Assembly (NCBI RefSeq): GCF_010131535.1 | Contig: NZ_WUBS01000002.1 | Span: 124,001-188,000, forward strand | Direction: 5' to 3' | DNA length: 64,000 nt | Source of the DNA: Acerihabitans arboris | GTDB lineage: Bacteria > Pseudomonadota > Gammaproteobacteria > Enterobacterales > Enterobacteriaceae | In this document: positions 23,609-58,458 of the stretch, piece by piece | Layout of the letters: every line of letters begins with the position of its first letter | Numbering within the stretch: position 1 is the stretch's first letter | Translations under genes and position numbers: made by a program | The notes under the pieces: model-generated | What the model was told of the DNA's origin: nothing | What the model saw: the letters and a program-made list of their open reading frames with translations, nothing else | Database searches by the model: none

Positions 23609-24082
23609 ATGACTCTCACCATGGCTATTGACGATGTTTTGCAGGAAGAATGTATTATCCTCAACTCACAGGCCCGGACCAAAGATCAGATTATTAATGA
23701 ACTCACCGACATCCTGTTCGACAGCGGCGCATTAGCGGATAAAACCTGTTTTTTAAAGGATGTCTGGTCAAGGGAGGAATTAGGTTCAACCGGTTTCGAA
23801 AATCATATTGCCATTCCCCATGGCAAATCCACCGCTGTATTAAAAACCCGTATTGCCATCGGCCGGGTCGATGGAGATATCCCTTGGGAAACGATAGACG
23901 GCACCAGGGTGCGATTAGTGATTCTGTTTGCGGTAAAGGATACCGACAGCGATGCCCGGCATATAAAAATATTATCAAAAATATCAATGGCATTAGGTGA
24001 TGATGAAGTCGTTGATGATTTACTCCATTTACAAAGCCGTAGCGAATTATATCGATTATTGGTAACCCGTTCTGAAAGTTAA
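23609..24082 (+). CDS. PTS fructose-family EIIA component
   Basis: Cytoplasmic phosphocarrier of 157 residues, PTS_EIIA_2 fold. The active-site histidine is H71 in FENHIAIPHGKS; the flanking REELGSTGF and the VRLVILFAVKD strand are typical. It transfers phosphate from HPr to the EIIB domain of the next gene. Lies 47 bases after the PRD regulator and 44 before the EIIBC gene, one probable operon. Confidence 0.92.
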   Translation: MTLTMAIDDVLQEECIILNSQARTKDQIINELTDILFDSGALADKTCFLKDVWSREELGSTGFENHIAIPHGKSTAVLKTRIAIGRVDGDIPWETIDGTRVRLVILFAVKDTDSDARHIKILSKISMALGDDEVVDDLLHLQSRSELYRLLVTRSES

Positions 24083-24126
24083 TATCCTAAAACTATAACT
24101 CTGTATTTACCTACCGGAGAAGGCAT

Positions 24127-38891: not shown

Positions 38892-39771
38892 TGCGGGTAT
38901 CCATTTTATCGCGCAGGCCGTCGCCCAGCAGGTTAAACGCCAGGCTGGCCAGCAGGATGGCGCCGCCGGGCGCGGCGGCCACCCACCACTGATCGAAGAT
39001 CACTTTGCTGCCTTCGGCTACCATCGATCCCCATTCGGCGGTCGGCGGACGAACGCCCATGCCCAGGAAGCCGAGGCCGGCGGCGGACAGGATAATGCCG
39101 CCCAGGCTTAGCGCCGCGCGCACCACGGCGCTGGGCAGGCACAGCGGCAGGATATGGCCGGACATCAGCCGCATGCCGCCGATGCCCTGCATACGCGCCG
39201 CCGCCAGGTAATCGCTGCGGCGCAGCCCCAGCGTTTCGGCGCGCGACTGGCGGGCAAAAGCCGGCCAACTGGTCAATGCCAGCGCCAGCGCGCCGTTCAT
39301 CAGCCCCGGTCCCATCACCGCCACCAGGGCCAGCGCGATCACCAGGCTTGGCAGCGACAGCACGATGTCGGTAACGCGCATCAGCACCCGCTCGGTCCAG
39401 CCGCCGAGATAACCGGCGCCGATGCCGATCAGCAGGCCGACCGGCACCGTCAGCACCAGGATCAGCGCCACCAGGATAAGCGTCGGCCGCGCGCCGTAAA
39501 TCACCCGCGACAGCAGGTCGCGGCCGAAGCCATCGGTGCCTAACCAATGATGGGCGGAAGGCGGCAGCAGGCGTTGTCCGATTTCCTGAACGTTCGGATC
39601 AAAGGGCGCCAGCCAGGGCGCAAACAGCGCCATCAGCACCAAAACGGCCGCCATGGCGCCGCCAACGGTTAACGCCGTCAGGCGCCGGCGGCGGATAAAG
39701 GTGGCCGGCGGCGAGTCAGGCGTTCCGCCGTCTCGCGCCGGCAGGGATGAGTCGGTCATCGATTGCGTCAT
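38878..39771 (-). CDS. Peptide/nickel-type ABC transporter permease (DppC family)
   Basis: Inner-membrane permease of 297 residues with about six helices. Typical parts are FDPNVQEIGQRLLPPS, LGTDGFGRDLLSRVIYGAR, the EAA loop RAETLGLRRSDYLAAARMQG and GVRPPTAEWGSMV. It begins with a polar, Pro-rich 25-residue segment before the first helix. Overlaps the stop of the DppB-type gene by four bases. Confidence 0.93.
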   Translation of the reverse strand: MTQSMTDSSLPARDGGTPDSPPATFIRRRRLTALTVGGAMAAVLVLMALFAPWLAPFDPNVQEIGQRLLPPSAHHWLGTDGFGRDLLSRVIYGARPTLILVALILVLTVPVGLLIGIGAGYLGGWTERVLMRVTDIVLSLPSLVIALALVAVMGPGLMNGALALALTSWPAFARQSRAETLGLRRSDYLAAARMQGIGGMRLMSGHILPLCLPSAVVRAALSLGGIILSAAGLGFLGMGVRPPTAEWGSMVAEGSKVIFDQWWVAAAPGGAILLASLAFNLLGDGLRDKMDTRNANR

Positions 39772-40820
39772 CGGGTTCGTGGATCGATTAAATAAGTCAG
39801 GGCATCGGCCAGGGCGTTAAGCAACACAAAGCAGAGGCCGATAAGCAGCGTGGCGCCCAGGATCGCCGGCGTATCGGAGGCAAACAGCGCGCCGGTCAGG
39901 TAGCGGCCCACGCCGGGCCAGGCGAACACCGTTTCGGTCAGCACCGCGCCCTCGAGCAGGCTGGCGTAGGAGAGCGACAGCACGGTCACCAGCGGCCCCA
40001 GCACGTTGGGGAAAATATGGCGCAATAAAATACGCAGCCGCCCGGCGCCCTTCGAGCGCGCGAGCACCACATACTCTTTGTTGCTCTCCTCCAGCAGCAA
40101 CGCCCGCAGCAGGCGGGTAATGCCGGCCATCGACAGCAGCCCGAGCACGGTAACCGGCAGCCACAGGTGGCTGATGGCGTTGCGGAACATGGCGCGATCG
40201 CCGGATAGCCAGGTATCCACCAGCACAAAACCGGTTTTCGGCTCCAGGGTATAGAGATAAATATCATCCAGCCGGCCCGGCCCGCTGGCCCAGTGCAGTA
40301 CGGCGTAAAACAGCAGCAATCCCAGCAGGCCCAGCCAGAATACCGGCACCGAATACCCCAGCAGCGAAACCAGGCGGGCGATGGAATCGAGCCAGTTGCC
40401 CGGCTTCCAGGCGGCCAGCAGCGCCAGCGCAATACCGCCGATGGCGCCGAACAGGATGGCGCAGGTGGCCAGTTCCAGCGTCGCGGGAAAGGTATGCAGT
40501 AAATCGTCAATCACCGGCTGGCCGGTAATGCGCGAGATGCCCATATCGCCGCGCACCAGGTGTTGCAGATAAAGCCGGAACTGCGTCGGCAGGGATTGGT
40601 CCAGGCCGAGCTGGCGGCGAATCTGGGCATAGGTGGCTTCGCTGGCGTGGTCGCCCGCCATCTGCAGCGCCGGATCAATCGGCGCCATTTGCGAGAGCGT
40701 AAACGTAAAAACCAGCAGGCCGAGCAGCGTCATCGCCAATGACAGCGCGCCGGTCAGGATGTTGCCCGACCAGCGCCAGCTTTGCCGGCCGAGGCCGGCC
40801 GAAGGCGTCGACGCCGACAT
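39768..40820 (-). CDS. Peptide/nickel-type ABC transporter permease (DppB family)
   Basis: Permease of 350 residues. After the first helix comes the periplasmic APIDPALQMAGDHASEATYAQ and RRQLGLDQSLPTQF, as in DppB. The large insertion YLYTLEPKTGFVLVDTW before helix four is shared with the permease at 54740, suggesting related substrates. The EAA loop VVLARSKGAGRLRILLRHIFPN and TETVFAWPGVGRYL are clear. Its ATG overlaps the binding-protein stop (TAATG at 40818-40822). Confidence 0.93.
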   Translation of the reverse strand: MSASTPSAGLGRQSWRWSGNILTGALSLAMTLLGLLVFTFTLSQMAPIDPALQMAGDHASEATYAQIRRQLGLDQSLPTQFRLYLQHLVRGDMGISRITGQPVIDDLLHTFPATLELATCAILFGAIGGIALALLAAWKPGNWLDSIARLVSLLGYSVPVFWLGLLGLLLFYAVLHWASGPGRLDDIYLYTLEPKTGFVLVDTWLSGDRAMFRNAISHLWLPVTVLGLLSMAGITRLLRALLLEESNKEYVVLARSKGAGRLRILLRHIFPNVLGPLVTVLSLSYASLLEGAVLTETVFAWPGVGRYLTGALFASDTPAILGATLLIGLCFVLLNALADALTYLIDPRTR

Positions 40821-42388
40821 TATTTGGTGACCCGGCTGTAAAACACCATATCCGGGTTGATGCCCTGGATATAGCCTTTCAGGTTATCGCGCACCGCAAT
40901 CAGGTTGCGCGCCTGTAAGCCGATGACATAAGGCGAACTTTGCATGACCTGCTTTTGCATCTGCCGATACATCTCCACCCGCCGGTGCGGATCGCTTTGC
41001 GCCGTGGCCGCCAGCGTCTGTTTGCTCAGTTCGGGAATATGCCAGTTGGCGCGCCAGGCCAGGGTTTTGCTGCCGTCTTCCGGATTATAGGCAAACGCGG
41101 CGGCGTTGGTATTGGGATCAAAATAGTCGGGGCCCCAGGAGGTCAGCGTTGCCTGGTAATTGTGGCTTTTCACGCTGGTTGATATCTGCGAGCTCAGCCC
41201 GGGCGCCACGTCCACGGCCACGCCGCCTTTGGCGAAACTGCCCTGCAACGCCTGGGCGATGTCCAGGTAGGGCGGCTGGTTGCTGACGGAAATCGTGAAG
41301 CTGACGTTGGCCAGCCCGGCCTTGGCCAGGATCTGTTTGGCTTTTTCCGGATCGTAGCGGTACGGCTCGTCCCTCAGCGCGCCCGGATACCCGTCGGGCA
41401 GGAAGGACTGGTGCACCTGGAATTGCCCTTTCATCAGGTCTTCGGCAATGCCGTGATAGTCAAACAGATAACGCGCGGCCTCCCAGAACGCCGGATTTTT
41501 CAGCGCCGGCGAAGCGTCGGCGTTAAACTGCAGGAAATACAGCGACGCCATGGGAACGGCCATGGGTGTGACCCCGGACTTGCCTGTTAACGCCGCCATC
41601 TGATCGGCGCCAAGATTGCGCGCGATATCCGCATCGCCCTGCTCCACCAGCAGCCGCCGCGCCGCCGGTTCCGGCACGTTCTTGATCAACACGTTGGCAA
41701 GCTTCGGCGCGCCTTCCGGCGAGCTTGGATTGGCCTGCAAGACCAGCACCTCATGGGGGACATAGCTGCGGATCTTATACGGACCGGTACCGGCGGAATG
41801 CCGGCCCAGCCAACCGTGGCCGAAATCGTTATTTTGCTGATGGGCCAGCGCCTCTTCGGCGTCGATAATCGATGAAACGGGAGCGGACAGCAGGCTAAGG
41901 ACGTAGGCGGGGCTGACGTCGGCGGTCCAGCTAATCTTCACCCTATTGTCGTCCACCTTTTGCAGCATGCCGTCGACGTTTTTTTCGTTCCAGCCGAGCT
42001 GGGTCAGGATAAACGACGGCTCCAGGTTGAGCTTGATCACCCGTGACAGCGAAAAGATCACGTCTTCCGGGCGCAGCGGATGGCCGCTGGCGAATTGGGT
42101 ATGCGGCCGCAGGGTGAAGGTCAGGCTGCGGTTATCGGCGCCGGCTTGCCAACTGTCCGCCAGGGTCGGTTTTAGCTCGATAGGGTTATGCGGATTGGAT
42201 TGCAACAGACGCTGGTAGAGACTGTTAAACGACTGCACGGTGGTCAGTTCAAATCCTTCCGCCGGGTCAAAACTGGACGCGTCGTCGATGGACTGGACGA
42301 TAACCAAGGTATCGGCCGGCGTGGTCGCCCGCGCGTTGAACGCGCACGCCAGGGCGGTGAAAAGCAACGAGGAAACGGCTAATTTCAT
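40820..42388 (-). CDS. Periplasmic peptide/nickel-type ABC substrate-binding protein (SBP_bac_5)
   Basis: Binding protein of 522 residues from the ATG at 42388 with a clear signal peptide (KLAVSSLLFTALACAFNARA, cleavage near residue 22). A TTG 30 bases further out only adds a polar leader. Family elements are VQSIDDASSFDPAEGFELTT, LADSWQAGADNRSLTFTLRP and HSAGTGPYKIRSYVPHE. First gene of a five-gene minus-strand importer operon, divergent from yceJ. It resembles the binding protein at 53091, so the two importers may be paralogues. Confidence 0.92.
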   Translation of the reverse strand: MKLAVSSLLFTALACAFNARATTPADTLVIVQSIDDASSFDPAEGFELTTVQSFNSLYQRLLQSNPHNPIELKPTLADSWQAGADNRSLTFTLRPHTQFASGHPLRPEDVIFSLSRVIKLNLEPSFILTQLGWNEKNVDGMLQKVDDNRVKISWTADVSPAYVLSLLSAPVSSIIDAEEALAHQQNNDFGHGWLGRHSAGTGPYKIRSYVPHEVLVLQANPSSPEGAPKLANVLIKNVPEPAARRLLVEQGDADIARNLGADQMAALTGKSGVTPMAVPMASLYFLQFNADASPALKNPAFWEAARYLFDYHGIAEDLMKGQFQVHQSFLPDGYPGALRDEPYRYDPEKAKQILAKAGLANVSFTISVSNQPPYLDIAQALQGSFAKGGVAVDVAPGLSSQISTSVKSHNYQATLTSWGPDYFDPNTNAAAFAYNPEDGSKTLAWRANWHIPELSKQTLAATAQSDPHRRVEMYRQMQKQVMQSSPYVIGLQARNLIAVRDNLKGYIQGINPDMVFYSRVTK

Positions 42389-42698
42389 GGCAAGCTCCGG
42401 ATAAGGTCGATTCGGCAAACTGTTGGCGAGTGTAGGGGAGCCGTCCTCTGAGCGTAAATGACATTAAACGCTATAGTTATTTCATATCCGCATAACAACA
42501 AGCGCTTTAATAGCCTTTCTAACCGTCGGGGCTTGCCATCCCCCCGCCGTTACCAATCGATCCCACGCCATGATAATAAAGCGCATTTTTTGATTTACAA
42601 AACTTTAACGTCTTTAACATCGCTTATAATTGCTTTTTTATTTCAGTATGTTTTATTTATTGCCCAATGGTAACGAAAAACCACGGGAGAAACGCCTT

Positions 42699-43903: not shown

Positions 43904-45286
43904 TTATGGCGACAGGCTGTCGTTAATGCAGGGGGGACGCCGCAGATGAAAATCGGTACGCTGCTGAAAATGGTGCGCCACCTTTAACAACATTTGCTCG
44001 CCGCCGTCCGGCCCGATCAGTTGCATGCCGATGGGCAGGTTTTGCGCGTCGAATCCGGCGGGCAGGCTCAGGGCGGGCATGGCCGTCAGGCTGGGAAGGC
44101 AGGTAAAGCGCATATTGCCGGTCAGTACGCTTTCCGGTTGTCCATCAATCACCACCTGCGCCTGTCCGCTAAGCGGCGCGGTAAACGGCAGCGTCGGCGT
44201 CAGGATAACGTCCACCTGGCGAAAAAGCCGCTCAAGCTGCTGGCGCAGCCAGGTCCGGTAGCGCTGGGCCTGCAAATATTCCACGGCGCTGAAGCCGAGG
44301 CCGGCCTGCAATAACATGCGCACGTCCTCGCCGTACTCCTCCGGCCGGGATTGCAGCCAATGCCCATGGACGGCGCTCGGTTCCGCGGCATCGACAATCA
44401 CCTGCGCATCGACGGCGTTCTCCAGACCGTCTACCCGCACCGGCGCGATCGTCGCCCCCATCTCGCCGAACAGCGCCAGGGTCTGTTGCCAGGCGCGCGC
44501 GACATCCGGCTGCAGGCCCTGGTCGCTGTAGTCCTCGATGACGCCGATGCGCAGCGGATAGGGCGCGTCGTCCAGGGATAACGGCGTTTCACCCGACAGC
44601 GCGGTATACACCAGCGCGCATTCTTCGCTGGAACGGGCCAGCGGACCGACGGTATCCATGCTCCATGCCAGGGGAAAAATACCCTCGGTGCTGATGCGCC
44701 CGACGCCGGGCCTGAGCCCCGTGACGCCGTTCATCGAGGCCGGCAGCCGGATGGAGCCGCCGGTATCGGTGCCGAGCGTGGCGAAGGCGCTGCGCACCGC
44801 CGCCGCCACGCCCGAGCCGCCGCTGGAGCCGGCGGGAATGCGCGCGGCGTCCCAGGCGTTATGACAAGCGCCATAATGCGGGTTATCGGTGGTGCCGCCC
44901 CAGGCAAACTCATGCATGGTGGTGGTGCCGAGGATCAGTGCGCCGGCCTGCTTTAAGCGCAGGCTGACCACCGCGTCCCGGCCGGCCATATTCCCTTGCA
45001 GGATACGGCTGCCCGCGTGCATCTCATGGCCTTGGATATCGATATTGGCCTTCAGCGCCAGCGGGATCCCATGCAGGGGGCCCAGATCGTAGCCATTGCG
45101 CAGCAGGGTCTGGTAGGCCTCGGCCAGTTCAACGGCCTGCCGTTCATAGATTTCGCTAAACGCATTAAGCCGTCGGGTCAGGCGCTCCCGGTCCAGGCAG
45201 GCGCCGGCCAGTTCGGGGAAACTCAGCCGGCCTTGCCGCACCTGCCGTCCGGCTTCGCCAATAGAGAGATCCAGGATATCCGACAT
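43904..45286 (-). CDS. Amidase-signature hydrolase (AtzE/GatA-like)
   Basis: Amidase-signature enzyme of 460 residues that hydrolyses a C-N amide bond. The Ser-cisSer-Lys triad is visible: K79 in GIPLALKANIDIQG, the cis-serine at about 154-155 in PAGSSGGSG and the nucleophile S178 in GTDTGGSIRLPAS. A small AtzG-like gene lies three bases upstream, the same pairing as AtzE-AtzG of 1-carboxybiuret hydrolase. Part of a minus-strand cluster with a nitrilase and an ABC importer. Substrate is unknown; GatA is excluded by context. Confidence 0.92.
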   Translation of the reverse strand: MSDILDLSIGEAGRQVRQGRLSFPELAGACLDRERLTRRLNAFSEIYERQAVELAEAYQTLLRNGYDLGPLHGIPLALKANIDIQGHEMHAGSRILQGNMAGRDAVVSLRLKQAGALILGTTTMHEFAWGGTTDNPHYGACHNAWDAARIPAGSSGGSGVAAAVRSAFATLGTDTGGSIRLPASMNGVTGLRPGVGRISTEGIFPLAWSMDTVGPLARSSEECALVYTALSGETPLSLDDAPYPLRIGVIEDYSDQGLQPDVARAWQQTLALFGEMGATIAPVRVDGLENAVDAQVIVDAAEPSAVHGHWLQSRPEEYGEDVRMLLQAGLGFSAVEYLQAQRYRTWLRQQLERLFRQVDVILTPTLPFTAPLSGQAQVVIDGQPESVLTGNMRFTCLPSLTAMPALSLPAGFDAQNLPIGMQLIGPDGGEQMLLKVAHHFQQRTDFHLRRPPCINDSLSP

Positions 45287-45289
45287 AAT

Positions 45290-45493
45290 TCAGCCTCGGC
45301 GTGGATTAATGGGCTGCAGGGGCGACACCCGTACCGTTATCGGCAATACCGTGGCGTCCAGGTGCTGGTTAACAAACCGGCTTAACGCGTCGGCGCGCGC
45401 CACCCAATCCTCAAGCGTCGGCAGCACCGCGTCCTGATGCCCCTGGCTTAAGGCGCCCAGCAGGGCCAGGCGTTTTTTTGCATGCTCGGTCAT
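45290..45493 (-). CDS. AtzG-like small subunit (DUF4089-type)
   Basis: A 67-residue protein just upstream of the amidase gene. AtzG-type proteins are about 65-70 residues, helical, and form a complex with an AtzE-type amidase. Here the pattern AVLPTLEDWVARADALSRF, then V-L-P-I at the C-terminal third, is consistent with the family, though the match is loose. Position next to an amidase is the stronger argument. Confidence 0.6.
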   Translation of the reverse strand: MTEHAKKRLALLGALSQGHQDAVLPTLEDWVARADALSRFVNQHLDATVLPITVRVSPLQPINPRRG

Positions 45494-45549
45494 GGCGTAT
45501 TGTCCTCCTCCGGCAAGCGCGCGCCGATAAATACGGCGTACGCTCAGGG

Positions 45550-46557
45550 TTATTTAGCCGCGTCGGCCATTGCCTTGGCCTTGGTGGCCAGCGCGACATT
45601 GACATTATTTTGATAAGAAGTGGCCTCGGAGGGATAGGCTTTGATATTTTTGGCATATAACGCGATCTGCATATTGTTGTCCCAGGCTTTCTGCGATACC
45701 AGTACGTTCTCCGGATAGCCCTTGGCCTCGATTTCACGCATCACCGCGGCGCGCACCAGATCCCTGGGCACGTTGGGGAAATATTTGGCGGCGATTTCCA
45801 CCGCGCGATCGGTATTGCGGTAAATAAAGCGCGACGCCATCTCAAAGGCGGTCACCACGCCCTGCGCCTGCGCGGGATTGTTATCAATATAGTCCTGGGT
45901 GGTGGTCAGGCTTGAAAACGCAAAGGGAAACCAGTCCTGGTTGGCGGCGAACGAGTACACCACATGCAGGCCGTTCTGCCTTTCCGCCATCGAGGTCTGC
46001 GGTTCCACCGCCAGCGCATAGTCGGCGCGATCCGCCGCCACCGCCGGGATTTCATTGCCGATCGCCACGTGCACCAGCTTCACATTGCTTAAGTTATGCT
46101 GTTTGATCAGATAACTCATAAACGCCCAGGTGGTGTCGGGCTGCGGGCTGGTCACTACCCTCTTGTTGGACAAAAAGCCCAGGTTGTTCTGCAGCGGCGT
46201 GGCGTCCTTGCCGAAGATAAATACCGTCGGCGCGTTTTGCACCCCGGCCACCACCACCCCGCCACCGCCATTTTCATGGGATTTCGGCACAAACACCGGG
46301 TCCTGAATGGAAAAATCCGCCGAACCGCCGATCACCGCCGCCCAGGACTGGGAACCGCCGCCACCGGTGCTGATCTTGACCTCGACGCCCTGCTGTTTAA
46401 AAAAGCCTTGCTCCTGCGCGACGTAGAGCGGCAGGTAGAGCAAGGACTGAAAGGCCTGGTTGATGCGCACCGGCGTTTGCGCCGCCGGCGCCGGTCCCGC
46501 CACCGCACCCAGTGTAACTGCCAGGGCAATACCCCGTATCCGCTTGCTTATGTTCAT
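45550..46557 (-). CDS. Periplasmic SsuA/TauA/ThiY-like ABC substrate-binding protein
   Basis: Binding protein of 335 residues from the ATG at 46557, just after the permease stop. A signal peptide ends near APAAQ (about residue 26); the longer frame to 46791 is a shadow of the permease gene. NMT1/SsuA-like features are QSLLYLPLYVAQEQGFFKQQG, the glycine-rich STGGGGSQSWAAVIGGSADF and AFEMASRFIYRN. Members bind sulfonates, pyrimidine precursors or nitrogen compounds. With the amidase and nitrilase, an amide- or nitrile-containing ligand is likely. Confidence 0.9.
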   Translation of the reverse strand: MNISKRIRGIALAVTLGAVAGPAPAAQTPVRINQAFQSLLYLPLYVAQEQGFFKQQGVEVKISTGGGGSQSWAAVIGGSADFSIQDPVFVPKSHENGGGGVVVAGVQNAPTVFIFGKDATPLQNNLGFLSNKRVVTSPQPDTTWAFMSYLIKQHNLSNVKLVHVAIGNEIPAVAADRADYALAVEPQTSMAERQNGLHVVYSFAANQDWFPFAFSSLTTTQDYIDNNPAQAQGVVTAFEMASRFIYRNTDRAVEIAAKYFPNVPRDLVRAAVMREIEAKGYPENVLVSQKAWDNNMQIALYAKNIKAYPSEATSYQNNVNVALATKAKAMADAAK

Positions 46558-46559
46558 TT

Positions 46560-47396
46560 TCAGGCCCTTTCCCATGAGAGAATCATACGTTCGAGTAAAG
46601 CGACTAACCCGTTGAAAACCAGCATCATGATCATTACCAGCACAATGCCCGCCAGGACGATATTCATGCCGAAATTGGAGCTGCCCAGCAGGATCATATG
46701 GCCGACGCCGGCATCGGAGGAAATGTATTCCCCGACGATGGCGCCCACCAGGGCGAAACCGACGTTCAGGCGCAGGCCGGACACCACCCACAGCATGGCG
46801 GACGGCACCACCAGCTTGATAAAAATCACCGTGCGCGAGGCATCGAAAGATCGCAGTAGGTTGATCAGGTCCGGATCGGTGCGCAACGCGCCCTTATAGG
46901 ACGTGGTCAGCGAGACCACCACGCAGGAGAAGGCCACGATCACCACCTTGGACAGCATTTCGGTGCCGAACCAGATAATGGTAATCGGCGCGATGGCCAG
47001 TACCGGGATGGCGCCGACGGCGGCAATAAACGGCGCGGCCAGATCCGAGATAAACCGGGAATACCACAGCAGCAACCCCAGTATCGACCCGCCGACCGCC
47101 CCGACCACAAAACCAATCAGCGTCTCGCAGGTGGTGATGTTGATATCGGCCAGCAGCTCGCCGGACTGGAAGCGTTGCACCAGCACCTCCCACACCATGC
47201 TGGGACTGGCAAACAGGAACTTGCTGATGCCGCCGGTGCGTACCCCGATTTCCCAGCCGGCCAGCAGGCCGGCCACAATCAGTATTTGCAACAGCAGCAG
47301 GGTATAGCGCCGCACGGCCGGGGTGCGGAAAAAGGACTCCAGCCGTTCGCTCTTGCGGGCGGTGTCCATCCGGGTAGGTTGCGGGATACTGCTCAT
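46560..47396 (-). CDS. SsuC/TauC-type ABC transporter permease
   Basis: Inner-membrane permease of 278 residues from the ATG at 47396 (a start 15 bases further out is possible). Six helices; conserved parts are GWEIGVRTGGISKFLFASPS, GSILGLLLWYSR, the EAA-like loop TDPDLINLLRSFDASRTVIFIKLVVPSAML and a final GIVLVMIMMLVFNGLVALLE. It lies between its ATPase (upstream) and binding protein (downstream). Confidence 0.92.
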   Translation of the reverse strand: MSSIPQPTRMDTARKSERLESFFRTPAVRRYTLLLLQILIVAGLLAGWEIGVRTGGISKFLFASPSMVWEVLVQRFQSGELLADINITTCETLIGFVVGAVGGSILGLLLWYSRFISDLAAPFIAAVGAIPVLAIAPITIIWFGTEMLSKVVIVAFSCVVVSLTTSYKGALRTDPDLINLLRSFDASRTVIFIKLVVPSAMLWVVSGLRLNVGFALVGAIVGEYISSDAGVGHMILLGSSNFGMNIVLAGIVLVMIMMLVFNGLVALLERMILSWERA

Positions 47397-47418
47397 GATT
47401 GCGCCTCGCAAAAGACAG

Positions 47419-48198
47419 TCATATATTGACCGGGGCGGCGCCGATGCTGCGCCAGATCACTTCGTAATAATCATTGAAGCGCGGCGAGAGCCGGCGCTCG
47501 GGAATAATCATGCTGTCGGTCTCCAGATCGACCTTTATCTCATGCACAATCTCACCCGGACTGGCTTTCATGACGTAGACCCGGTCCGAGAGCGTGACCG
47601 CCTCTTCGATATCGTGGGTGATAAATATCACCGTCTTTTTCTGCTGTTTAACCACCGTTAGCAGTTCCGACTCGAGCGCGACTTTCAGCGGATAGTCCAG
47701 CGCCTTGTAAGCCTCGTCCATCAAGATGATTTCAGGCTCGGTGACCATGGTGCGCATCAGCGCCACCCGCTGTTTCATACCGCCGGACAGCTGGGCGGGA
47801 TATTTATCCTCGAATCCCTCCATGTGGTAGGTACGCAACAGGTCGGCGGCGCGTTCGCGGGCGATTTTTTTATTGATTCCCCGCACCTCCAGTCCCAGGA
47901 CGACGTTCTCCAGCACGGTCCTCCAGGGAAACAGCAAATCCTTTTGCAATACGTAGCCCAGATCCGGCGAGGGGCTGCCGGTGGTCTCGCGGTTTTTGAT
48001 AATGATATGGCCGTCGTCGGGCGCCAGCAGGCCGGTAATGATGTTGAACAAGGTGGATTTGCCGCAGCCGCTGGGGCCGACAAAAGAGATAAACTCATTT
48101 TCATCGGCATGAAAATCCAGGGCATGGAGCACCGCCACCGGCCCCGAGGCCGAGGCGTAGCTTTTCGAGATATTGACTGCTTGCAGGGTATGCGGCAT
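47419..48198 (-). CDS. SsuB/TauB-type ABC transporter ATP-binding protein
   Basis: ATPase of 259 residues. Walker A GPSGCGKST, Q-loop LQKDLLFPWRTVLENV, signature LSGGMKQRVALMRTMV and Walker B IILMDEAYKALD are intact, with the switch His in FITHDIEEAV. The FPWRTVLEN stretch is typical of nitrate/sulfonate/taurine importers. Four bases after the nitrilase gene. Confidence 0.95.
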   Translation of the reverse strand: MPHTLQAVNISKSYASASGPVAVLHALDFHADENEFISFVGPSGCGKSTLFNIITGLLAPDDGHIIIKNRETTGSPSPDLGYVLQKDLLFPWRTVLENVVLGLEVRGINKKIARERAADLLRTYHMEGFEDKYPAQLSGGMKQRVALMRTMVTEPEIILMDEAYKALDYPLKVALESELLTVVKQQKKTVIFITHDIEEAVTLSDRVYVMKASPGEIVHEIKVDLETDSMIIPERRLSPRFNDYYEVIWRSIGAAPVNI

Positions 48199-48202
48199 GA
48201 CG

Positions 48203-49111
48203 CTACTCCCCGCCGTGCTGGGCAGGGTGATGGCGCACGGTTAACACCGGATCGGATACCCGCACCGGCACATAATCCTTGAGGAAAAAATAGCCCATAT
48301 AACCTACGCTGCGTGAGTGGGTGATAGCGTCCCTGATGTTGACGCTCGCCATGGCGATGCCCGCGGCATTACCGGTATCGGCAATGATGTTGCCGCGCGG
48401 ATCTATGATGCGGCTGTGGCCGTGGTACAGCAGGTTGCCGTGGGCGCCATGCATATTGGATTCCACCATCCAGCATTGATTTTCCATCGCGCGCACCCGC
48501 CCAAACAGGGTATAGCTGTCGACCATGGAATCCTGTTCCGGATCCCGGCTATCGCCCGCCAGACCCCAGGCGGTGGGCATGATCATGATATCCGCGCCCC
48601 GAAGCGCCAGTTCGCGGGTGCTTTCAGGAAAGACCTTGTCATAGCAGATCAGCATGCCGATGCGCCCGAGCGGCGTATCAAACACCGGAAACCGGTCGCC
48701 GGGATAATAGACATGCTTCTCGTCGCCCGGCTGGTGTACCTTGCGATAACGGCCCACCTCGCCCTCCGGCCCCAGCAGCACCACGGTGTTGAACAATACC
48801 TCGGGGAAACGGGGATGGCGTTCGGTCATGCCCACCACCGCATAGACCTGATGCTGTATTACCGCCTGGCGGATCCGGCCGATGCCCTCCCCGGTTTCAA
48901 TCACCTCGGCGTTGGCGAATTGCCAGGCCACGTTATCAAAATCCAGGCGCAGGGTATCGGTCAGGTAGCCCTGTAAAATCTGTTCGGGAAACACCACCAG
49001 CCCGGCGCCGGCGTCGACGGCCCGCGCCAGCAGCGCGAGAATATTGGCGACGTTGCGCTGTTTGTCATAAAACGCCTGCATGGAAACGGTGGCAATGATG
49101 GTTTCGCTCAC
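48203..49111 (-). CDS. Carbon-nitrogen hydrolase (nitrilase superfamily)
   Basis: Hydrolase of 302 residues acting on a nitrile, amide or carbamoyl group. The Glu-Lys-Cys triad is present as E43 in VVFPEQILQGYL, K124 in GRYRKVHQPG and C156 in IGMLICYDKVFPES. Closest in pattern to aliphatic amidase/N-carbamoyl amide hydrolase branches; a true nitrilase cannot be excluded. First gene of a six-gene minus-strand set with importer, AtzG-like protein and amidase; divergent from an XRE-cupin regulator. Confidence 0.92.
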   Translation of the reverse strand: MSETIIATVSMQAFYDKQRNVANILALLARAVDAGAGLVVFPEQILQGYLTDTLRLDFDNVAWQFANAEVIETGEGIGRIRQAVIQHQVYAVVGMTERHPRFPEVLFNTVVLLGPEGEVGRYRKVHQPGDEKHVYYPGDRFPVFDTPLGRIGMLICYDKVFPESTRELALRGADIMIMPTAWGLAGDSRDPEQDSMVDSYTLFGRVRAMENQCWMVESNMHGAHGNLLYHGHSRIIDPRGNIIADTGNAAGIAMASVNIRDAITHSRSVGYMGYFFLKDYVPVRVSDPVLTVRHHPAQHGGE

Positions 49112-49302
49112 ACCCTGCTCCTGTCGTTTGATGGATTAACCGCCGCCGGCTGGCCCGGCCGCGCGGGTTAGGCTGGCTTTCACATCATGCCGCTTAATTT
49201 TCGTTAAGACCAAAATGTTTTTCTTATAGTAAAAAATAAGCGGTGTTAAAGAAAATAACGTACACTCCAGCGCTAGGCATGTGTTAAGGATCCGGAGGGC
49301 CG
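49112..49302. promoter_or_regulatory. Divergent promoter region between nitrilase and XRE-cupin genes
   Basis: 191 bases. The half near the regulator is AT-rich and includes TATAGT in the spacer of a small repeat CTTAT (49223-49227)/ATAAG (49236-49240). The regulator has a GGATCCGGAGGG ribosome-binding site. Likely holds both promoters and the operator of the XRE-cupin protein; no consensus operator recognised. Confidence 0.4.
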
Positions 49303-49965
49303 ATGGCGAACAATAGCTTCAGTAAAACGGCAGGCATAAGGACCGCGTTGACTACGGAGCAGGATTTTGGCAACCGGGTTAAAGCGCTGCGGGTGGAGCG
49401 GCGCTGGACGCTGGATCAGGTGGCAAAAAACAGCGGGGTGTCCATCTCCACGCTGTCGAAGATCGAGAACGGCCAGGTATCGGCCTCCTTCGATACCATC
49501 ACCAAAATTGCCAACGCCTTCGATTTTTCCTTCAGCGATCTGTTCAAGCAGAACGCATCGGCCTCCCCAAATGCCCGCCCGCCGGTGGCCGGGCGCCGTA
49601 CCGTCACCCGCGCGGGCGAGGGGCTGGTCTTTACCAACGCCCACTATATCTACAATGTGCACTCCGAGGAATTAACCCATAAGGGCATGATCCCGATAGT
49701 AATGCAGATTACCGCGCGCGAGGCGCCGCCGCAGGAGCAATGGTCCTGCCATGAAGGCGAAGAATTTATTTATGCGATCAGCGGGACCACCATCCTGCAT
49801 ACCGCCTGGTATGCCCCGCTGTGCCTGATGCCCGGCGACAGCGCCTATATCGACAGTTCGATGCCGCACGCCTTTGTGACGCAGGGGGAGCGGGACGCCT
49901 CGATTCTGTCTATCTGCCTTACCGATAAACTGGATTTCGAGCAACCGGGCAAGGCGGCGGGGTAA
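49303..49965 (+). CDS. XRE-family regulator with cupin sensor domain
   Basis: Regulator of 220 residues. The helix-turn-helix (about 22-78) reads VKALRVERRWTLDQVAKNSG and STLSKIENGQVSASFDTITKIA. A C-terminal cupin (about 135-205) contains HEGEEFIYAISG and PGDSAYIDSSMPHAF. This architecture is typical of PuuR-like regulators that sense a small amine or amide. Divergent from the nitrilase/ABC/amidase genes, which it probably controls. Confidence 0.92.
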   Translation: MANNSFSKTAGIRTALTTEQDFGNRVKALRVERRWTLDQVAKNSGVSISTLSKIENGQVSASFDTITKIANAFDFSFSDLFKQNASASPNARPPVAGRRTVTRAGEGLVFTNAHYIYNVHSEELTHKGMIPIVMQITAREAPPQEQWSCHEGEEFIYAISGTTILHTAWYAPLCLMPGDSAYIDSSMPHAFVTQGERDASILSICLTDKLDFEQPGKAAG

Positions 49966-50332: not shown

Positions 50333-51268
50333 ATGGAACTGAAGTGGCTTGAAGATTTTCTCAGCGTTTCTCAGTGCTATAGCTTTACGCGGGCGGCTAA
50401 TGAGAGAAACATCACCCAGTCCGCGCTGAGCCGCCGTATCAAACAGCTTGAGGAGTGGCTGGGGGTACCGCTGTTCGATCGCAAGTCTTATCCGATTCGC
50501 CTGACGCCCGAGGGCCGGGATTTTCTGCAAACCGCGTCGGAAATGGTGTTTTCCATGGCCCAGCTTCGCAACGATATCCGCCAGCGTCATGCGCAAAAAC
50601 ACGCCATCGTGCATTTCGCCACGCTGAATACGCTGTCGCTGACCTTTTTCCCCGCCTGGATCAACGCGATCGATCCGTCCCAGCAATACGGCTACCTGCG
50701 GCTGTGCGACCAGCAGCCGTCTTTCAGCGGTAATATTTCCCTGCTGCTCGATGGCGAAACCGATTTCCTGCTGACCTACGCGCACGACTCCGTGCCGTTG
50801 ATGAAACAACTGCAGCGTTTTCCGTACATCGAACTGGGCGAGGAGCGGGCCATCGCCGTCTGCGCGCCGGACAGCGACGGCAAACCGCTTTACCCGATCG
50901 ATGAGCGCCGGGACGCCGACGGCAACCAGGCGCCCATCCCTTATCTCAGCTATGGCAAACGCTCATTTTTCGCCCACGCGCTCAGCGCGCTGTTTGCCTT
51001 GCGCCCGCTGCCGCTGAAGCCTATTTATGAAAATCCGATTTCCAGCGGCCTGAAGGCCATGACGATTTCCGGCTGCGGCACGTCATGGCTGCCGTCGAGT
51101 CTGATCACCGAGGAAATCGCCGCCGGCACCCTGACCCGCGCGGGCGATCGCAGTTGGGATATCCAGGCCGGGATCCGCCTTTACCGGCTGGAAAAATTCC
51201 GCAATATCCAGGCCGAACGCCTGTGGAACCGGGCCTGCCTGCTGCACCGGACGCACGCGGCGGCCTGA
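50333..51268 (+). CDS. LysR-family transcriptional regulator
   Basis: A 311-residue LysR protein. The helix-turn-helix (about 3-62) has FLSVSQCYSFTRAANERNITQSALSRRIKQLE, then WLGVPLFDRKSYPIRLTPEG. It is similar in layout to the LysR at 14167, including the long effector-domain insertion before the C-terminus (FALRPLPLKPIYENP). It precedes the M20/ABC operon on the same strand and is its likely regulator. In-frame stop confirms the full length. Confidence 0.92.
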   Translation: MELKWLEDFLSVSQCYSFTRAANERNITQSALSRRIKQLEEWLGVPLFDRKSYPIRLTPEGRDFLQTASEMVFSMAQLRNDIRQRHAQKHAIVHFATLNTLSLTFFPAWINAIDPSQQYGYLRLCDQQPSFSGNISLLLDGETDFLLTYAHDSVPLMKQLQRFPYIELGEERAIAVCAPDSDGKPLYPIDERRDADGNQAPIPYLSYGKRSFFAHALSALFALRPLPLKPIYENPISSGLKAMTISGCGTSWLPSSLITEEIAAGTLTRAGDRSWDIQAGIRLYRLEKFRNIQAERLWNRACLLHRTHAAA

Positions 51269-51561
51269 ATCGCGTCACCCGGCGTCCGGCGGCATATCCG
51301 GCCTGATAACTTCTTCTTTCCTTGCTGTTTCCCGGTGGGACGCGCGTGCCATTGCCAAAATAAAAAGTCTATTTATCAGATAAATATTCATTTCACATGC
51401 CAAAAAACCAGGCCCGGGCAAACTATGCAATTTTGGAATAGGCCAGTTTAAAGTCTCATTGGATATTTGCCGCTTCCACCCACATCCTGAATGGGTTCCC
51501 ATCGTATTGTCCGACCCAGCACGTCATCGACGACTTCATCCACCGGCACGAGGATATTCAG

Positions 51562-53004
51562 GTGAATAACGCATTAGCGCAGCAGAAAGCATTGGTCTGG
51601 AATCTGGTCGACGTCAAAAAGAACCTGTTCACCGCCCTGAGCGACCGTATCTGGGGCATGCCTGAAATCGCCTATACCGAATACCGTTCGGTGGCCGAAC
51701 ACACCGCCATGCTGAAGTCCCAGGCTTTTCGCGTAACGGAAAACGTCGCAGGCATCCCCACCGCCGTCATGGGGGAAGCCGGACAGGGAGGCCCGATCAT
51801 CGCCATCCTGGGTGAATACGATGCGCTGCCGGGGCTGAGCCAGGTGGCCGGCATCGCCAGGCCGGAACCGATCCCCGGCAATGGCCACGGCCATGGCTGC
51901 GGCCATAACCTGCTCGGCTCCGCCGCCATGCTCGCCGCCACGGCAATTAAAGACTGGCTGGCGCAGACCGGCGCGCCGGGTCGCGTACGCTATTACGGCT
52001 GTCCGGCGGAAGAAGGCGGCGCGGCAAAATCCTTTATGGCCCGCGCCGGCGCGTTTGACGACGTGGATATCGCCATTACCTGGCACCCGTCGGCCTTTAG
52101 CGAAGTGGCGCGCGCCGAGTCCCTGGCCAATACCCGCATGGACTTTGTCTTCCACGGGCGCGCCTCACACGCCGCCGCGTCTCCGCATCTGGGGCGCAGC
52201 GCGCTGGATGCCGTCGAACTGATGAACGTCGGCGTCAACTACCTGCGTGAGCATGTGCCGTCCGATTCGCGGATCCACTACGCCATGCTCGACTCCGGCG
52301 GCATTGCGCCGAACGTGGTGCAGGCGCGCGCGGCGGTACGTTACGCGATCCGCGCCCGCGACGTTCACGCCATGTTCGCACTTAACGAGCGGGTGAAAAA
52401 AGTGGCGGCGGGCGCGGCGATGATGACCGAGACCCGGGTGGATATCAGCATCATGAGCGCCGTCGCCAACCTGCTGGGCAACGAGCCGCTGGAACAGGCC
52501 ATGCAGCGGAATTACGAACTGCTCGGCCCGATTGCCTTTGACGACGCCGACAAAGCCTTTGCCGCCGAAATCCAGGCCACGCTGACTCCGGAAGATATAC
52601 AGAGCGCCTATCGCCGCATCGGCGTTAAAACACCGCAACATCCCGCCCCGTTGTGTGAATTTATCGTTCCCCTGGACGCGGCCGGCGAGCTGATGCTCGG
52701 CTCCACCGACGTCGGCGACATCAGTTGGATACTGCCGACCGTGCAGGCCCACGTCCCGACTTACGCCATCGGCACCCCGGGCCATTCATGGCAGTTGACC
52801 GCGCAGGGCATGCTGCCCGCCGCGCATAAAGGGCTAGCCCACGCGGCCAAGGTCATGGCCGCCACCGCCATCGATACCCTGACCGACAAGGTCTTGCTGG
52901 CGCAGGCGAAAACCGCGCATTACGAACTCACCGCGCAAACGCCTTACGTCTGCCCTATTCCCGCCGACGTGAAACCGCCGCTGCAACCGCGCCCGGCCGA
53001 ATAG
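51562..53004 (+). CDS. M20-family amidohydrolase (AbgB-like)
   Basis: Metal-dependent amidohydrolase of 480 residues, the length of E. coli AbgB, the p-aminobenzoyl-glutamate hydrolase subunit it resembles throughout. Dimetal-site residues include H109-H115 in NGHGHGCGHNLLG, E150-E151 in GCPAEEGG and H175 in TWHPSAF. The later STDVGDISWILPT and GTPGHSWQLTAQG are shared with AbgB. No AbgA partner is present, so it may work as a homomer on a different N-acyl amino acid or dipeptide imported by the following ABC system. Confidence 0.9.
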   Translation: MNNALAQQKALVWNLVDVKKNLFTALSDRIWGMPEIAYTEYRSVAEHTAMLKSQAFRVTENVAGIPTAVMGEAGQGGPIIAILGEYDALPGLSQVAGIARPEPIPGNGHGHGCGHNLLGSAAMLAATAIKDWLAQTGAPGRVRYYGCPAEEGGAAKSFMARAGAFDDVDIAITWHPSAFSEVARAESLANTRMDFVFHGRASHAAASPHLGRSALDAVELMNVGVNYLREHVPSDSRIHYAMLDSGGIAPNVVQARAAVRYAIRARDVHAMFALNERVKKVAAGAAMMTETRVDISIMSAVANLLGNEPLEQAMQRNYELLGPIAFDDADKAFAAEIQATLTPEDIQSAYRRIGVKTPQHPAPLCEFIVPLDAAGELMLGSTDVGDISWILPTVQAHVPTYAIGTPGHSWQLTAQGMLPAAHKGLAHAAKVMAATAIDTLTDKVLLAQAKTAHYELTAQTPYVCPIPADVKPPLQPRPAE

Positions 53005-53090
53005 CGGTATTGTCCTGTGCCGCATTTTTTGCGGCATTTTTGCCGCGCGTCCGCGGTACTTCGCCATTTTCATTCACAGGAGCGGAATTG

Positions 53091-54701
53091 ATGCATAACA
53101 CCCGGAAACGAGCCCTGAACAACCTGATCGGACTGACGTTGGGGTGCGCCGTGCTGCCCCTGGCGGCGCAGGCGCAAACGCCCGCGGATTCGCTGGTGAT
53201 GGCATGGAATATCGACGCCATCAGCACCTTTGATCCGGCGCAGATCGGCGAAGTGGTCACCAATGAAATCATCAAGAACACCTGCGACACGCTGGTCGAC
53301 TTCGATCCCAAGGATGAATCCCAGGTTATTCCCCGTCTGGCAAAAAGCTGGGACATTTCGCCGGACCGCAGGCGGATTACCTTCCATCTGAACAGCGGGC
53401 TGACGTTCCCGTCGGGCAATAAGGCCACGGCGAAGGATGTCGCCTGGTCGCTGCAGCGGGTGGTGCTGTTGGGCTTCGGCAATTCCGCCACCCTGACCGA
53501 ATACGGCTTCGACAAGGATAACGTTACCCAGCGTATTACCGCGCCGGACGACGATACGCTGGTCATGGGCTTTGATCAGCCGTATCCAACCAACCTGGTG
53601 CTGCAGGCGATTGCGGCCAACAACGTCTCCACCACGCTTGACCGCGCGCTGGTGGAGCAAAACGCCGTTAACGGCGATATGGGCAATAAATACCTCACCA
53701 CCCATACCGCCTGCGTCGGACCCTATCAGCTGATGCGCTGGAACGCCGGCGAAGGCGTGATGCTGCAGGCGAATAAAGAATACTGGGGCGCCGCCCCCAA
53801 ACTGCAGCGTATCCTGATCCGCCACGTGGCGGAAACGGGCACCCAACGTTTGCTGCTGACCCAGGGCGACGTGGACATCGCGCGCGACCTCGCCCCGGAC
53901 GATCTGCGCGATTTAGACCAGGGCGGCCAGGTGAAGATAGAAAAAGTGCTTAAGCCGCAGCTGTTTTTCTGGACCTTCAACAGCGAAGACCCCATCTTTA
54001 AAAATCCCAAGGTGCGCCTGGCGATGCGTTACCTGATCGATTACCAGGGCCTGGCGTCCACCGTCATGCCGTACCTCGGCGTGCCCCGCGCCAGCTTCGC
54101 GCAGCTCGGCGCCTACGGCGCGCTGGATAAAGATGCCGGACAACCGTTCAAGCTCGATCTCGCCAAAGCCAAACAACTGCTGACCGAAGCCGGCTATCCG
54201 GACGGATTCAGCGCCAAACTGATTATCGGCACCCTGCCGCACTCCGCGCCCATTGCGCAAAGCACCCAGGAAAACGCGTCGAAAATCGGCGTAAGGCTAT
54301 CCATCGAGAGCATGGCCAATGCCCAGCTGTTCAGCCGGGTGCGCGGGCGTGAATTCCAAAGCGCCATGATGGCGTGGCAGACCGCGGTGCCGGACGCCCA
54401 TGGCAACGCCTCGCGCCTGGTGTTTAACCCGGACAACAGCAAGGAGGCCAAAAAAACGCAGTATCCGAGCTGGCGCGCGGCCTATTTTGACCCGGCGATG
54501 AACCGGCAGGTCACCGACGCGCTGCTGGAGCCCGACGCCCAAAAACGCATCGCTCGCTACCACACCCTGCAGGAAGAGCAGATGCAGCAGGGACCGATGG
54601 CGATCATGTTCCAAATGTACAACACCGCCGGGTTGACTAAACAGGTGAAAGACTGGACCTGGAACGGCTTTCGCGTTTATTACGCCGTGGCCGCCAAATA
54701 A
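53091..54701 (+). CDS. Periplasmic peptide/nickel-type ABC substrate-binding protein (SBP_bac_5)
   Basis: Binding protein of 536 residues from the ATG at 53091 with CAGGAGCGG upstream; the signal peptide ends near AAQAQT (about residue 29). Family elements are WNIDAISTFDPAQIGEVVTN, RLAKSWDISPDRRRITFHLN and HTACVGPYQLMRWNAGE. It is similar in pattern to the binding protein at 40820, suggesting gene duplication. First importer gene after the M20 amidohydrolase. Confidence 0.93.
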   Translation: MHNTRKRALNNLIGLTLGCAVLPLAAQAQTPADSLVMAWNIDAISTFDPAQIGEVVTNEIIKNTCDTLVDFDPKDESQVIPRLAKSWDISPDRRRITFHLNSGLTFPSGNKATAKDVAWSLQRVVLLGFGNSATLTEYGFDKDNVTQRITAPDDDTLVMGFDQPYPTNLVLQAIAANNVSTTLDRALVEQNAVNGDMGNKYLTTHTACVGPYQLMRWNAGEGVMLQANKEYWGAAPKLQRILIRHVAETGTQRLLLTQGDVDIARDLAPDDLRDLDQGGQVKIEKVLKPQLFFWTFNSEDPIFKNPKVRLAMRYLIDYQGLASTVMPYLGVPRASFAQLGAYGALDKDAGQPFKLDLAKAKQLLTEAGYPDGFSAKLIIGTLPHSAPIAQSTQENASKIGVRLSIESMANAQLFSRVRGREFQSAMMAWQTAVPDAHGNASRLVFNPDNSKEAKKTQYPSWRAAYFDPAMNRQVTDALLEPDAQKRIARYHTLQEEQMQQGPMAIMFQMYNTAGLTKQVKDWTWNGFRVYYAVAAK

Positions 54702-54739
54702 CCGGGGCGACATTGTCGTCCGCACAGAAGGAGCCACCG

Positions 54740-55825
54740 ATGTCGCTACTCGATCCTAGCGCCGCGGGCGAACATCCTGCTGACCCGCTCTGGCTCAGGC
54801 TGGGTGAACACGGCGCGCGCTTGGGCAAGCTGCTGGTTTCCGTGTCCTGTACCCTGTTGGGGCTGGCGGCGCTGACCTTTTTCATCGGCCGCCTGCTGCC
54901 CATCGATCCGGTGGTGGCGGTGCTGGGGGACAATGCCAGCCAGGAAGCCTATCAAAAGATGTATCACCTGTTGGGGCTGGACAAACCGCTGTGGGAGCAG
55001 TTTTTGATGTACCTGAAAAACGTCGCCGCACTAGACTTCGGCAATGCGCTGACCACCGGCCGTCCGGTCGCCGAGGACATCGGCCGGGTATTTCCGGCCA
55101 CCCTGGAGCTGGCGAGCCTGGCGGCGATCATCGGCACCTGCCTGGGCATTCCGGCAGGCGTGCTCAGCGCCATGTACCGCAATACCTGGTTCGATCACTG
55201 TATCCGCTTTATCGGCCTGCTCGGCCATTCGGCGCCGAATTTCTGGCTGGGGCTGATGGGGCTGGTGCTGTTTTACGCCACGCTCGGCTGGATAGGCGGA
55301 CCGGGGCGCATCGATTTTATCTACGAATTCGACGTGCGGAAGGTCACCGGGTTCTACCTGATTGACACCGCGCTTGCCGGCAACTGGGCGGCGCTGGGCA
55401 ATGTGTTCAGCCACCTGATCCTGCCGGCGTCGATTCTCGGGCTCAGCGGCCTGTCCTATATCAGCCGCATGACCCGCAGCTTTATGATTGAACAGCTGTC
55501 GCAGGAATATGTGATAACCGCGCGCGTCAAGGGGCTGTCATGGGCGCGCAGCGTATGGGTCCACGCGTTTCGCAACGTGGCGGTGCAGGTGGTGACCGTG
55601 GTGGCCCTCTCCTACGCTTTCCTGCTGGAAGGCGCGGTGCTGACCGAAACCGTTTTCGCCTGGCCCGGCTTCGGCCGTTACCTGACCAACGCCATGCTGG
55701 CCGGCGACATGAACGCGGTGGTCGGCTGTTCACTGCTGATCGGCGTCATATTTGTAGGGCTAAACCTGCTGTGCGACCTGCTTTACCGCATTTTCGATCC
55801 ACGTACCCGCCAGGAGCAATCATGA
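54740..55825 (+). CDS. Peptide/nickel-type ABC transporter permease (DppB family)
   Basis: Permease of 361 residues from the ATG at 54740, preceded by AGAAGGAGCC. Helix one is followed by LPIDPVVAVLGDNASQEAYQ. The insertion DFIYEFDVRKVTGFYLIDTA before helix four parallels the permease at 39768. EAA loop VITARVKGLSWARSVWVHAFRN and TETVFAWPGFGRYL are intact. Its stop overlaps the DppC-type start (ATGA). Confidence 0.93.
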   Translation: MSLLDPSAAGEHPADPLWLRLGEHGARLGKLLVSVSCTLLGLAALTFFIGRLLPIDPVVAVLGDNASQEAYQKMYHLLGLDKPLWEQFLMYLKNVAALDFGNALTTGRPVAEDIGRVFPATLELASLAAIIGTCLGIPAGVLSAMYRNTWFDHCIRFIGLLGHSAPNFWLGLMGLVLFYATLGWIGGPGRIDFIYEFDVRKVTGFYLIDTALAGNWAALGNVFSHLILPASILGLSGLSYISRMTRSFMIEQLSQEYVITARVKGLSWARSVWVHAFRNVAVQVVTVVALSYAFLLEGAVLTETVFAWPGFGRYLTNAMLAGDMNAVVGCSLLIGVIFVGLNLLCDLLYRIFDPRTRQEQS

Positions 55826-58440: not shown

Positions 58441-58458
58441 CGGCCCAGGAGTCGCGCC

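Follow-up and report, generated by a model that had tools for sequence, protein, structure and literature searches.

The window (the whole 64,000-nucleotide stretch of DNA analysed here) contains an operon and a divergent regulator gene, laid out as follows:

49303..49965, + strand: XRE-cupin transcription regulator, divergent from the operon (HTH_3 and Cupin_2, above the Pfam cut-offs)
49218..49236, no strand: conserved near-palindrome, candidate operator of the XRE-cupin regulator (intergenic alignment)
48203..49111, - strand: nitrilase-superfamily C–N hydrolase, amidase/carbamoylase-like by motif (PF00795)
47419..48198, - strand: ABC importer ATPase (PF00005)
46560..47411, - strand: ABC importer permease, TTG start as listed (PF00528)
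45550..46557, - strand: NitT/TauT-type substrate-binding protein (SBP), NMT1/SsuA-type (PF09084)
45290..45493, - strand: 67-aa protein outside known families, putative amidase partner (conservation, purifying selection)
43904..45286, - strand: amidase-signature hydrolase (PF01425)

Starting next to the regulator, the operon runs nitrilase-family enzyme, ATPase, permease, SBP, 67-aa protein and amidase, with 4, 7, 2, 56 and 3 bases between consecutive genes. These distances take the SBP to start at the ATG at 46557, as its listed GTG start (46791) lies too far upstream. Pfam matches bear out the gene positions and kinds given in the preliminary description for 43904..49965, i.e., the amidase, SBP, permease, ATPase, nitrilase-superfamily protein and divergent XRE-cupin gene.

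The same description had proposed a genome-neighbourhood survey, and this finds the set kept, in the same order, in 15 other loci: 14 from Enterobacterales and one on a Pseudomonas plasmid. Identity to the relatives is 66–96% for the ATPase, 66–95% for the permease and 68–90% for the SBP, and the SBP occurs in none of the 393 other Enterobacterales genomes sampled. The gene set is a genuine unit, conserved yet patchily distributed. After the amidase, an EamA carrier gene closes the run in 12 of 14 relatives and a second amidase gene closes it in the other two; the window operon has neither at this end. Many of the relatives have names that presumably hint at plant or insect hosts. L042 and L024 are one and the same Pseudomonas record, with frameshifts in the importer and amidase genes; its nitrilase ORF was used unaltered in alignments A1 and A2 (scan query) and excluded from A3–A6, A8 and the trees. 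L005 and L029, judged by length and place, are a single contig, L037 stops after the ATPase gene, and L041, in which the SBP reading is split, was excluded from the SBP alignment and the joined tree.

An NMT1-like SBP, a BPD permease and an ABC ATPase, all over their Pfam cut-offs (PF09084, PF00528 and PF00005), together make a NitT/TauT-type importer. The models nearest to the SBP and permease are of the SsuA, SsuC and SaoP types, as one would expect of a sulfonate or taurine uptake locus in which the hydrolases are incidental. However, all of these scores fall below cut-off (62 vs 163.5, 96 vs 295 and 96 vs 347), the locus proteins scanned include no desulfonating enzyme, and C–N hydrolases adjoin the SBP's relatives, so we regard a sulfonate locus as highly improbable. 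The predicted structure of the SBP (pLDDT 42) was too poor for a fold search.

An amidase, acetamidase/formamidase or other C–N hydrolase adjoins the SBP relatives with at least about 30% identity in all 16 loci opened, compared with two of nine loci below 30% (four of nine when isochorismatase-type hydrolases are counted). Fisher's test gives 7e-5 (0.002 with isochorismatase-type hydrolases counted), values which ignore kinship among loci that are related and not independent draws, and which compare flanks of 7–10 kb for the near loci with 5 kb for the controls. The counts draw on incomplete plasmid gene tables. Plasmid records matching the SBP numbered 33, of which 21 were opened: 12 with roughly 30% identity or above (one at 29.9%) and nine with less. 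The unopened ones are two sister Rhizobium and four Paraburkholderia records (near) and six others (far).

The nitrilase-superfamily protein scores 175 bits against PF00795 (cut-off 23.2) and reaches the cut-off of no listed NCBIfam model. Its E43, K124 and C156 form the Glu-Lys-Cys triad of the superfamily, as presented in PMC3537687, and these residues are invariant in 15 aligned rows along with E131 and K159. The motif at the nucleophile is Cys-Tyr-Asp in all 15 rows. Nitrile-hydrolysing nitrilases carry Cys-Trp-Glu there, which makes it improbable from the motif that this enzyme is one of them. In Thioclava, the importer, small gene and amidase are retained and no nitrilase gene is annotated nearby, and the nitrilase is therefore not essential to every version of the system.

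The enzyme could be a carbamoylase (of the beta-ureidopropionase or N-carbamoyl amino acid hydrolase type) in a ureide- or pyrimidine-derived pathway, with the amidase acting on a ring-opened precursor or product. N-carbamoyl-D-amino acid and N-carbamoylputrescine hydrolases are among its neighbours in the PDB. In D-carbamoylase, the first Arg of CNDRRWPE occupies the aligned position of K159, and we take this Arg to bind carboxylate. A Skermanella relative of the importer also adjoins a ring-opening amidohydrolase. We nevertheless judge this pathway unlikely, as the score for AguB, a carbamoylase-type model, is far under cut-off (109 vs 410), and no ring-opening or pyrimidine enzyme was noted in the portion of the relatives' gene neighbourhoods that was covered, where labels came only from a small reference set. 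The N-carbamoylputrescine hydrolases AguB and AguY, in the account of PMC12283126, are a nitrilase-like and a GatA-like enzyme for one ureido reaction; apart from the low AguB score, the window differs in that polyamine pathway genes are absent among the locus proteins scanned.

At 329 bits against PF01425 (cut-off 27), the amidase belongs to the amidase signature family, and its Lys, Ser and Ser motifs are retained in 15 of 15 rows. Its best NCBIfam model is indoleacetamide hydrolase (324 bits). This match, together with the plant-host-like names that many relatives presumably bear, would suit auxin-type chemistry, in which indole-3-acetonitrile or indole-3-acetamide is turned into indole-3-acetate by the nitrilase and amidase and, in relatives, the EamA carrier exports the product. 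But 324 is far under that model's cut-off of 532 and is nearly equalled by the AtzE models (317.6 vs 461 for NF006631 and 297.5 vs 425.75 for TIGR02715, both also below cut-off), the nucleophile motif is not that of nitrile-hydrolysing enzymes, and auxin synthesis needs no importer. We consider auxin production very unlikely.

The 67-aa ORF is coding and under purifying selection, because dN/dS is low (0.02–0.12) in eight Pantoea/Erwinia-type pairs; among five more distant pairs, it is 0.28 (window–L043), 0.61 (window–L029) and saturated in three. All 13 intact, complete relatives have its gene. The preliminary description had called the product AtzG-like, a label that fails in Pfam and NCBIfam searches and in profile–profile comparison. 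The window protein matches nothing in either database, including the AtzG-like/HpxX models PF13318 and NF033624, both of which are matched by the HpxX of the same genome, and PF13318 matches none of 15 members of the small-protein family (Pfam, E up to 10). Its family profile shares just 7–17 out-of-register columns with AtzG, HpxX and GatC profiles (E 0.07–0.5). For comparison, alignments among the AtzG, GatC and upstream-ORF sets span 38–53 columns at E 0.001–0.004, with hhalign probabilities of only 8–20%.

The predicted fold (pLDDT 77) is a short helix, a long helix and a tail. Foldseek gave no E below 9 for this query of just 67 residues, run without an AtzG control model, and the best PDB match of the family profile is a designed protein (E 0.0093). 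AtzG membership thus has no support from Pfam, NCBIfam, PDB sequence search, profile comparison or fold search. Two of the 15 family members match unrelated Pfam models, Ago_N_2 at 0.0063 and CAP at 0.041.

The genome does encode a true HpxX–AtzE pair, on contig C56 (HpxX 107.6 bits, cut-off 70; AtzE 743.6 bits, cut-off 461). This HpxW-HpxX-HpxY type cluster resembles the window in joining a small protein to a GatA-related amidase, but it matches the HpxX and AtzE models and has a gamma-glutamyltransferase alongside, whereas the window pair reaches neither model. Position alone, in other words, does not make a protein AtzG-like.

The AtzE–AtzG 1-carboxybiuret hydrolase of Pseudomonas sp. ADP likewise pairs a GatA-related amidase with a small protein whose gene lies immediately before that of the amidase; as PMC6219798 describes it, AtzG is non-catalytic and AtzE is insoluble without it. 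That gene order is what favours a route of the atzDGEHF kind, for carboxybiuret or s-triazines. Unlike AtzE–AtzG, the window pair has an amidase below both AtzE cut-offs and a small protein outside PF13318 with no profile similarity, and its locus carries no atzD; AtzD (PF09663) had no match in the genome, in a search whose positive control also gave none. We find such a route scarcely credible. The earlier statement that atzD, biuret hydrolase and allophanate hydrolase are missing holds for the locus proteins scanned, but elsewhere the genome carries an allophanate hydrolase (810.8 bits, cut-off 511), adjoined by a urea carboxylase of which the extracted locus contains the C-terminal part (556.9 bits for that part; model cut-off 1303.85).

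Our preferred reading, to which we give a probability of roughly 0.6, is that the operon works as a self-contained unit that imports a small compound of the amide or ureide type and deamidates it to obtain nitrogen. The importer would bring the compound into the cell and the two unrelated hydrolases would each cut one C–N bond, releasing ammonia or a fragment (e.g., urea) that the genome could use. The 67-aa protein may be a dedicated non-catalytic partner of the amidase, as AtzG is for AtzE, without detectable kinship. In most relatives the left-over acid would leave through the EamA carrier, whose gene the window lacks. A doubtful refinement makes the substrate a small dicarboxylic diamide or ureide, which the amidase would convert to a monoamide before the nitrilase-family enzyme, with K159 holding the carboxylate, removes the second amide. 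Of the two-step nitrogen-scavenging route first proposed, the coherent operon of importer and two hydrolases survives and does look like nitrogen scavenging; the AtzE–AtzG analogy is not borne out at the family level.

Clusters in Thioclava, Rhizobium, Paraburkholderia, Comamonas and Skermanella share a related SBP, permease and ATPase with an adjoining amidase, and that of Thioclava adds a small gene, an EamA carrier and a second amidase. They differ from the window in their regulators and in having no nitrilase-family gene annotated beside the importer. A literature search, aimed in part at the gene set and with most subscription journals outside its reach, found no description of it. The locus offers a well-bounded, testable operon, probably for nitrogen use.

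Gene-by-gene comparison with a congener shows that the small gene and the amidase gene have been swapped jointly; L029 exemplifies the other type of cassette. This fits a physical pair and makes the small protein a candidate new amidase-partner family. Adjacent genes can also be exchanged jointly without physical partnership. It is possible, if speculative, that the ~70-aa protein founds a family unrelated to GatC and AtzG, separate in origin, which stabilises or gates a GatA-type amidase, and that partner and amidase travel from genome to genome as a single interchangeable cassette, adapting the operon to different amides while the importer and nitrilase-family enzyme stay fixed. A true partnership would mean that a GatA-line amidase does not depend on the AtzG and GatC families for its small subunit, and the exchange between congeners sets two cassettes side by side behind one kind of importer, as a natural comparison. 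In yeast GatFAB, too, the small partner of a GatA-type amidase has changed, but GatF is a GatC ortholog and GatFAB a transfer-RNA enzyme, according to PMC4027206.

The XRE-cupin protein would govern the operon from the near-palindrome. In 13 of 15 related loci its gene lies next to the operon and points away from it, and the core of the near-palindrome, ATAAGAAAA (minus strand), is unchanged in 13 of 13 aligned intergenic regions (alignment A9, which excludes L042 as well as L030 and L043, where the XRE gene is not adjacent). The exact 19-mer at 49218..49236 occurs once in the genome, and the Kosakonia version is a perfect palindrome. The best sigma-54 match in the window's intergenic region has four mismatches, and there is therefore no direct sign of nitrogen control; Serratia and E. 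typographi have sigma-54-like sites with two mismatches.

We put at roughly 60% the probability that the operon in the window imports a small amide- or ureide-type compound and hydrolyses it stepwise for nitrogen, and the preliminary description, which had proposed import and hydrolysis for nitrogen, was right about the general kind of system. The seven genes it named all lie where it had placed them, six as one tight minus-strand run and the XRE-cupin gene divergent:

49303-49965, plus strand, XRE-cupin regulator
49218-49236, candidate operator
48203-49111, minus strand, nitrilase-family gene, followed by the ATPase and permease genes
45550-46557, minus strand, NitT/TauT-type substrate-binding protein (SBP)
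45290-45493, minus strand, small gene (67-aa product)
43904-45286, minus strand, amidase

As listed, the SBP gene starts too far upstream (46791); the ATG at 46557, where an apparent signal peptide begins, comes right after the permease stop. The G+C content of the operon is 0.605, vs 0.594 for the window.

Clues to the substrate come from SBP relatives and enzyme residues. With SBP relatives of ~30% identity or more, an amidase, acetamidase/formamidase or other C-N hydrolase adjoins the SBP in 16/16 opened loci (Thioclava, Pseudomonas, Rhizobium, Acuticoccus, Methylobacterium, two Comamonas, three Paraburkholderia, Skermanella, Agrobacterium and four other genomes). Below 30%, an amidase is nearby in 2/9 loci, or 4/9 if isochorismatase-type hydrolases are included (Fisher tests vs 16/16: 7e-5 and 0.002, with loci related within both sets, two control loci near copies, flanks of 7-10 kb for near relatives vs 5 kb for controls, and incomplete plasmid gene tables). 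The Paraburkholderia aromaticivorans cluster contains a gamma-glutamyltransferase and an oxalate/formate antiporter, and the Skermanella cluster a ring-opening amidohydrolase. Such neighbourhoods offer a hint that the substrate is a small diamide, ureide or ring-opened imide, though a diamide specifically is an improbable guess.

The nitrilase-family enzyme has Glu43, Lys124, Cys156 and Cys-Tyr-Asp-Lys at the nucleophile, unchanged in 15 alignment rows. Nitrile-hydrolysing nitrilases carry Cys-Trp-Glu instead of Cys-Tyr-Asp, so the substrate is more likely an amide or carbamoyl compound. In the alignment, Lys159 falls on the first Arg of the D-carbamoylase motif CNDRRWPE, the residue that holds the substrate carboxylate. 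Among the NCBIfam models listed, none reaches its cut-off for this enzyme or the amidase.

A neighbourhood survey of the gene set, suggested in the preliminary description, found the unit conserved at 15 other loci. The GTDB species collection was scanned with the nitrilase-family alignment via two short peptide patterns, so relatives without these patterns escape. Fourteen loci are from Enterobacterales (Serratia, Erwinia, Pantoea, Mangrovibacter, Klebsiella indica, Enterobacter, Kosakonia and two MAGs, one of them L029, the window's congener) and one is on a Pseudomonas plasmid. The nitrilase-ATPase order is identical in all 15; permease, SBP and amidase come next in all 14 with a long enough contig, the Pseudomonas copies being fragmented. 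On that plasmid (p1, CP093281; L024/L042), frameshifts break operon genes, through decay or sequencing errors. A small ORF lies 5' of the amidase in 13/13 intact and complete loci, and the XRE gene is neighbouring and divergent in 13/15, absent there in Serratia and E. typographi. At E up to 1e-40, the SBP was found in 0/393 other sampled Enterobacterales genomes and 4/397 sampled others of the phylum (34-37% identity); of five congeners queried with the nitrilase-family protein, one has a close copy (88%). The operon is thus kept as a unit with a patchy distribution.

The regulator-operon gap contains ATAAGAAAA in 13/13 aligned loci, inside a near-palindrome (perfect in Kosakonia) which is a candidate operator. 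Searching the genome for the 19-mer gives a single exact occurrence plus three sites that differ at two positions; the reversed control gives none. One two-mismatch copy (contig C23, 239955-239973) has two nitrilase-family matches in its surroundings, ~3 kb and 10 kb away. A search of the window's intergenic region for a sigma-54 site gave nothing better than four mismatches.

The 3' end of the operon varies. An EamA-type carrier follows the amidase in 12/14 loci (L029, L031-L036, L038-L042), and Pfam confirmed EamA on three of these and on Thioclava's carrier; for the Erwinia copy, the nearest NCBIfam models (cysteine exporter; carboxylate/amino acid/amine transporter) all fall under their cut-offs. 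Serratia (L030) and E. typographi (L043) have a second amidase in the carrier's place. Unlike Thioclava, which has both, the window has neither, with yceI next on the opposite strand; it either lost the carrier or second amidase or never had either.

Relative to L029, the small gene and amidase were exchanged jointly: their identities drop together and both trees move L029. DNA identity is 89.5% from the XRE gene to ~45574 (SBP gene end), beyond which nothing matches until 70.9% inside the amidase; protein identities are 88% (nitrilase), 96% (ATPase), 95% (permease), 90% (SBP), 30% (small protein) and 65% (amidase). With E. typographi, the last two are 52% and 71%. The joined nitrilase-importer tree makes the window and L029 sisters (ultrafast bootstrap 100). 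In the amidase tree, L029 falls inside a Pantoea-Kosakonia group (99), which with Thioclava is separate from the window, Serratia and E. typographi (95), and the small-protein tree again places L029 with that group (97). Joint exchange is how a physical pair would behave, and mere adjacency could produce the same.

The small gene is real. Eight Pantoea/Erwinia-type pairs have a dN/dS of 0.02-0.12, and among five distant pairs it is 0.28, 0.61 and three times saturated; a ribosome-binding site, good by eye, lies 5' of it. The preliminary description had called its product AtzG-like, after the non-catalytic partner of the AtzE amidase. This label appears wrong. The genome has a canonical HpxX-AtzE pair (HpxX 107.6 bits, cut-off 70; AtzE-family amidase 743.6, cut-off 461) which passes the family tests, whereas the window's small protein and amidase fail them. 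The relevant features on contig C56 (L002, L055, L103) are:

23508-25060 and 86053-87735, HpxX-AtzE with an adjoining gamma-glutamyltransferase, and allophanate hydrolase with an adjoining urea carboxylase gene

The latter two would make urea usable if it is a product. An AtzG-like gene is still kept in a strongly reduced 1.1-Mb genome of the same family (G018; L057).

Judged by sequence, AtzG-like membership is rejected: PF13318 was found in 0/15 small-protein family members at E up to 10, and alignments to AtzG-like, related-amidase small-ORF and GatC profiles cover 7-17 columns, out of register (E 0.07-0.5). A PDB search with the single sequence gave no match. The three profile sets match each other over 38-53 columns (E 0.001-0.004) with probabilities of just 8-20%, so this yardstick is itself weak. 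The model (pLDDT 77) has a short helix, a long helix and an extended tail, and its best Foldseek neighbour is no better than E 9. The small protein may therefore still share a distant origin with the AtzG/GatC sets. ORFs of 65 aa that look AtzG-like and carry an EPA motif close to their end lie 5' of amidases 38-40% identical to the window's (L069, L070, L072, L073, L075, L076); small partners encoded upstream may thus be widespread in that amidase line.

Beside the operon, window positions 50333-60752 hold one run of genes for a LysR regulator, M20-type amidohydrolase, peptide-type SBP, two permeases, ATPase, beta-lactamase-family protein and MmgE/PrpD protein, a predicted second uptake-and-hydrolysis locus. 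At 37375-42418 lies a further ABC importer of the peptide type, whose SBP belongs to family 5.
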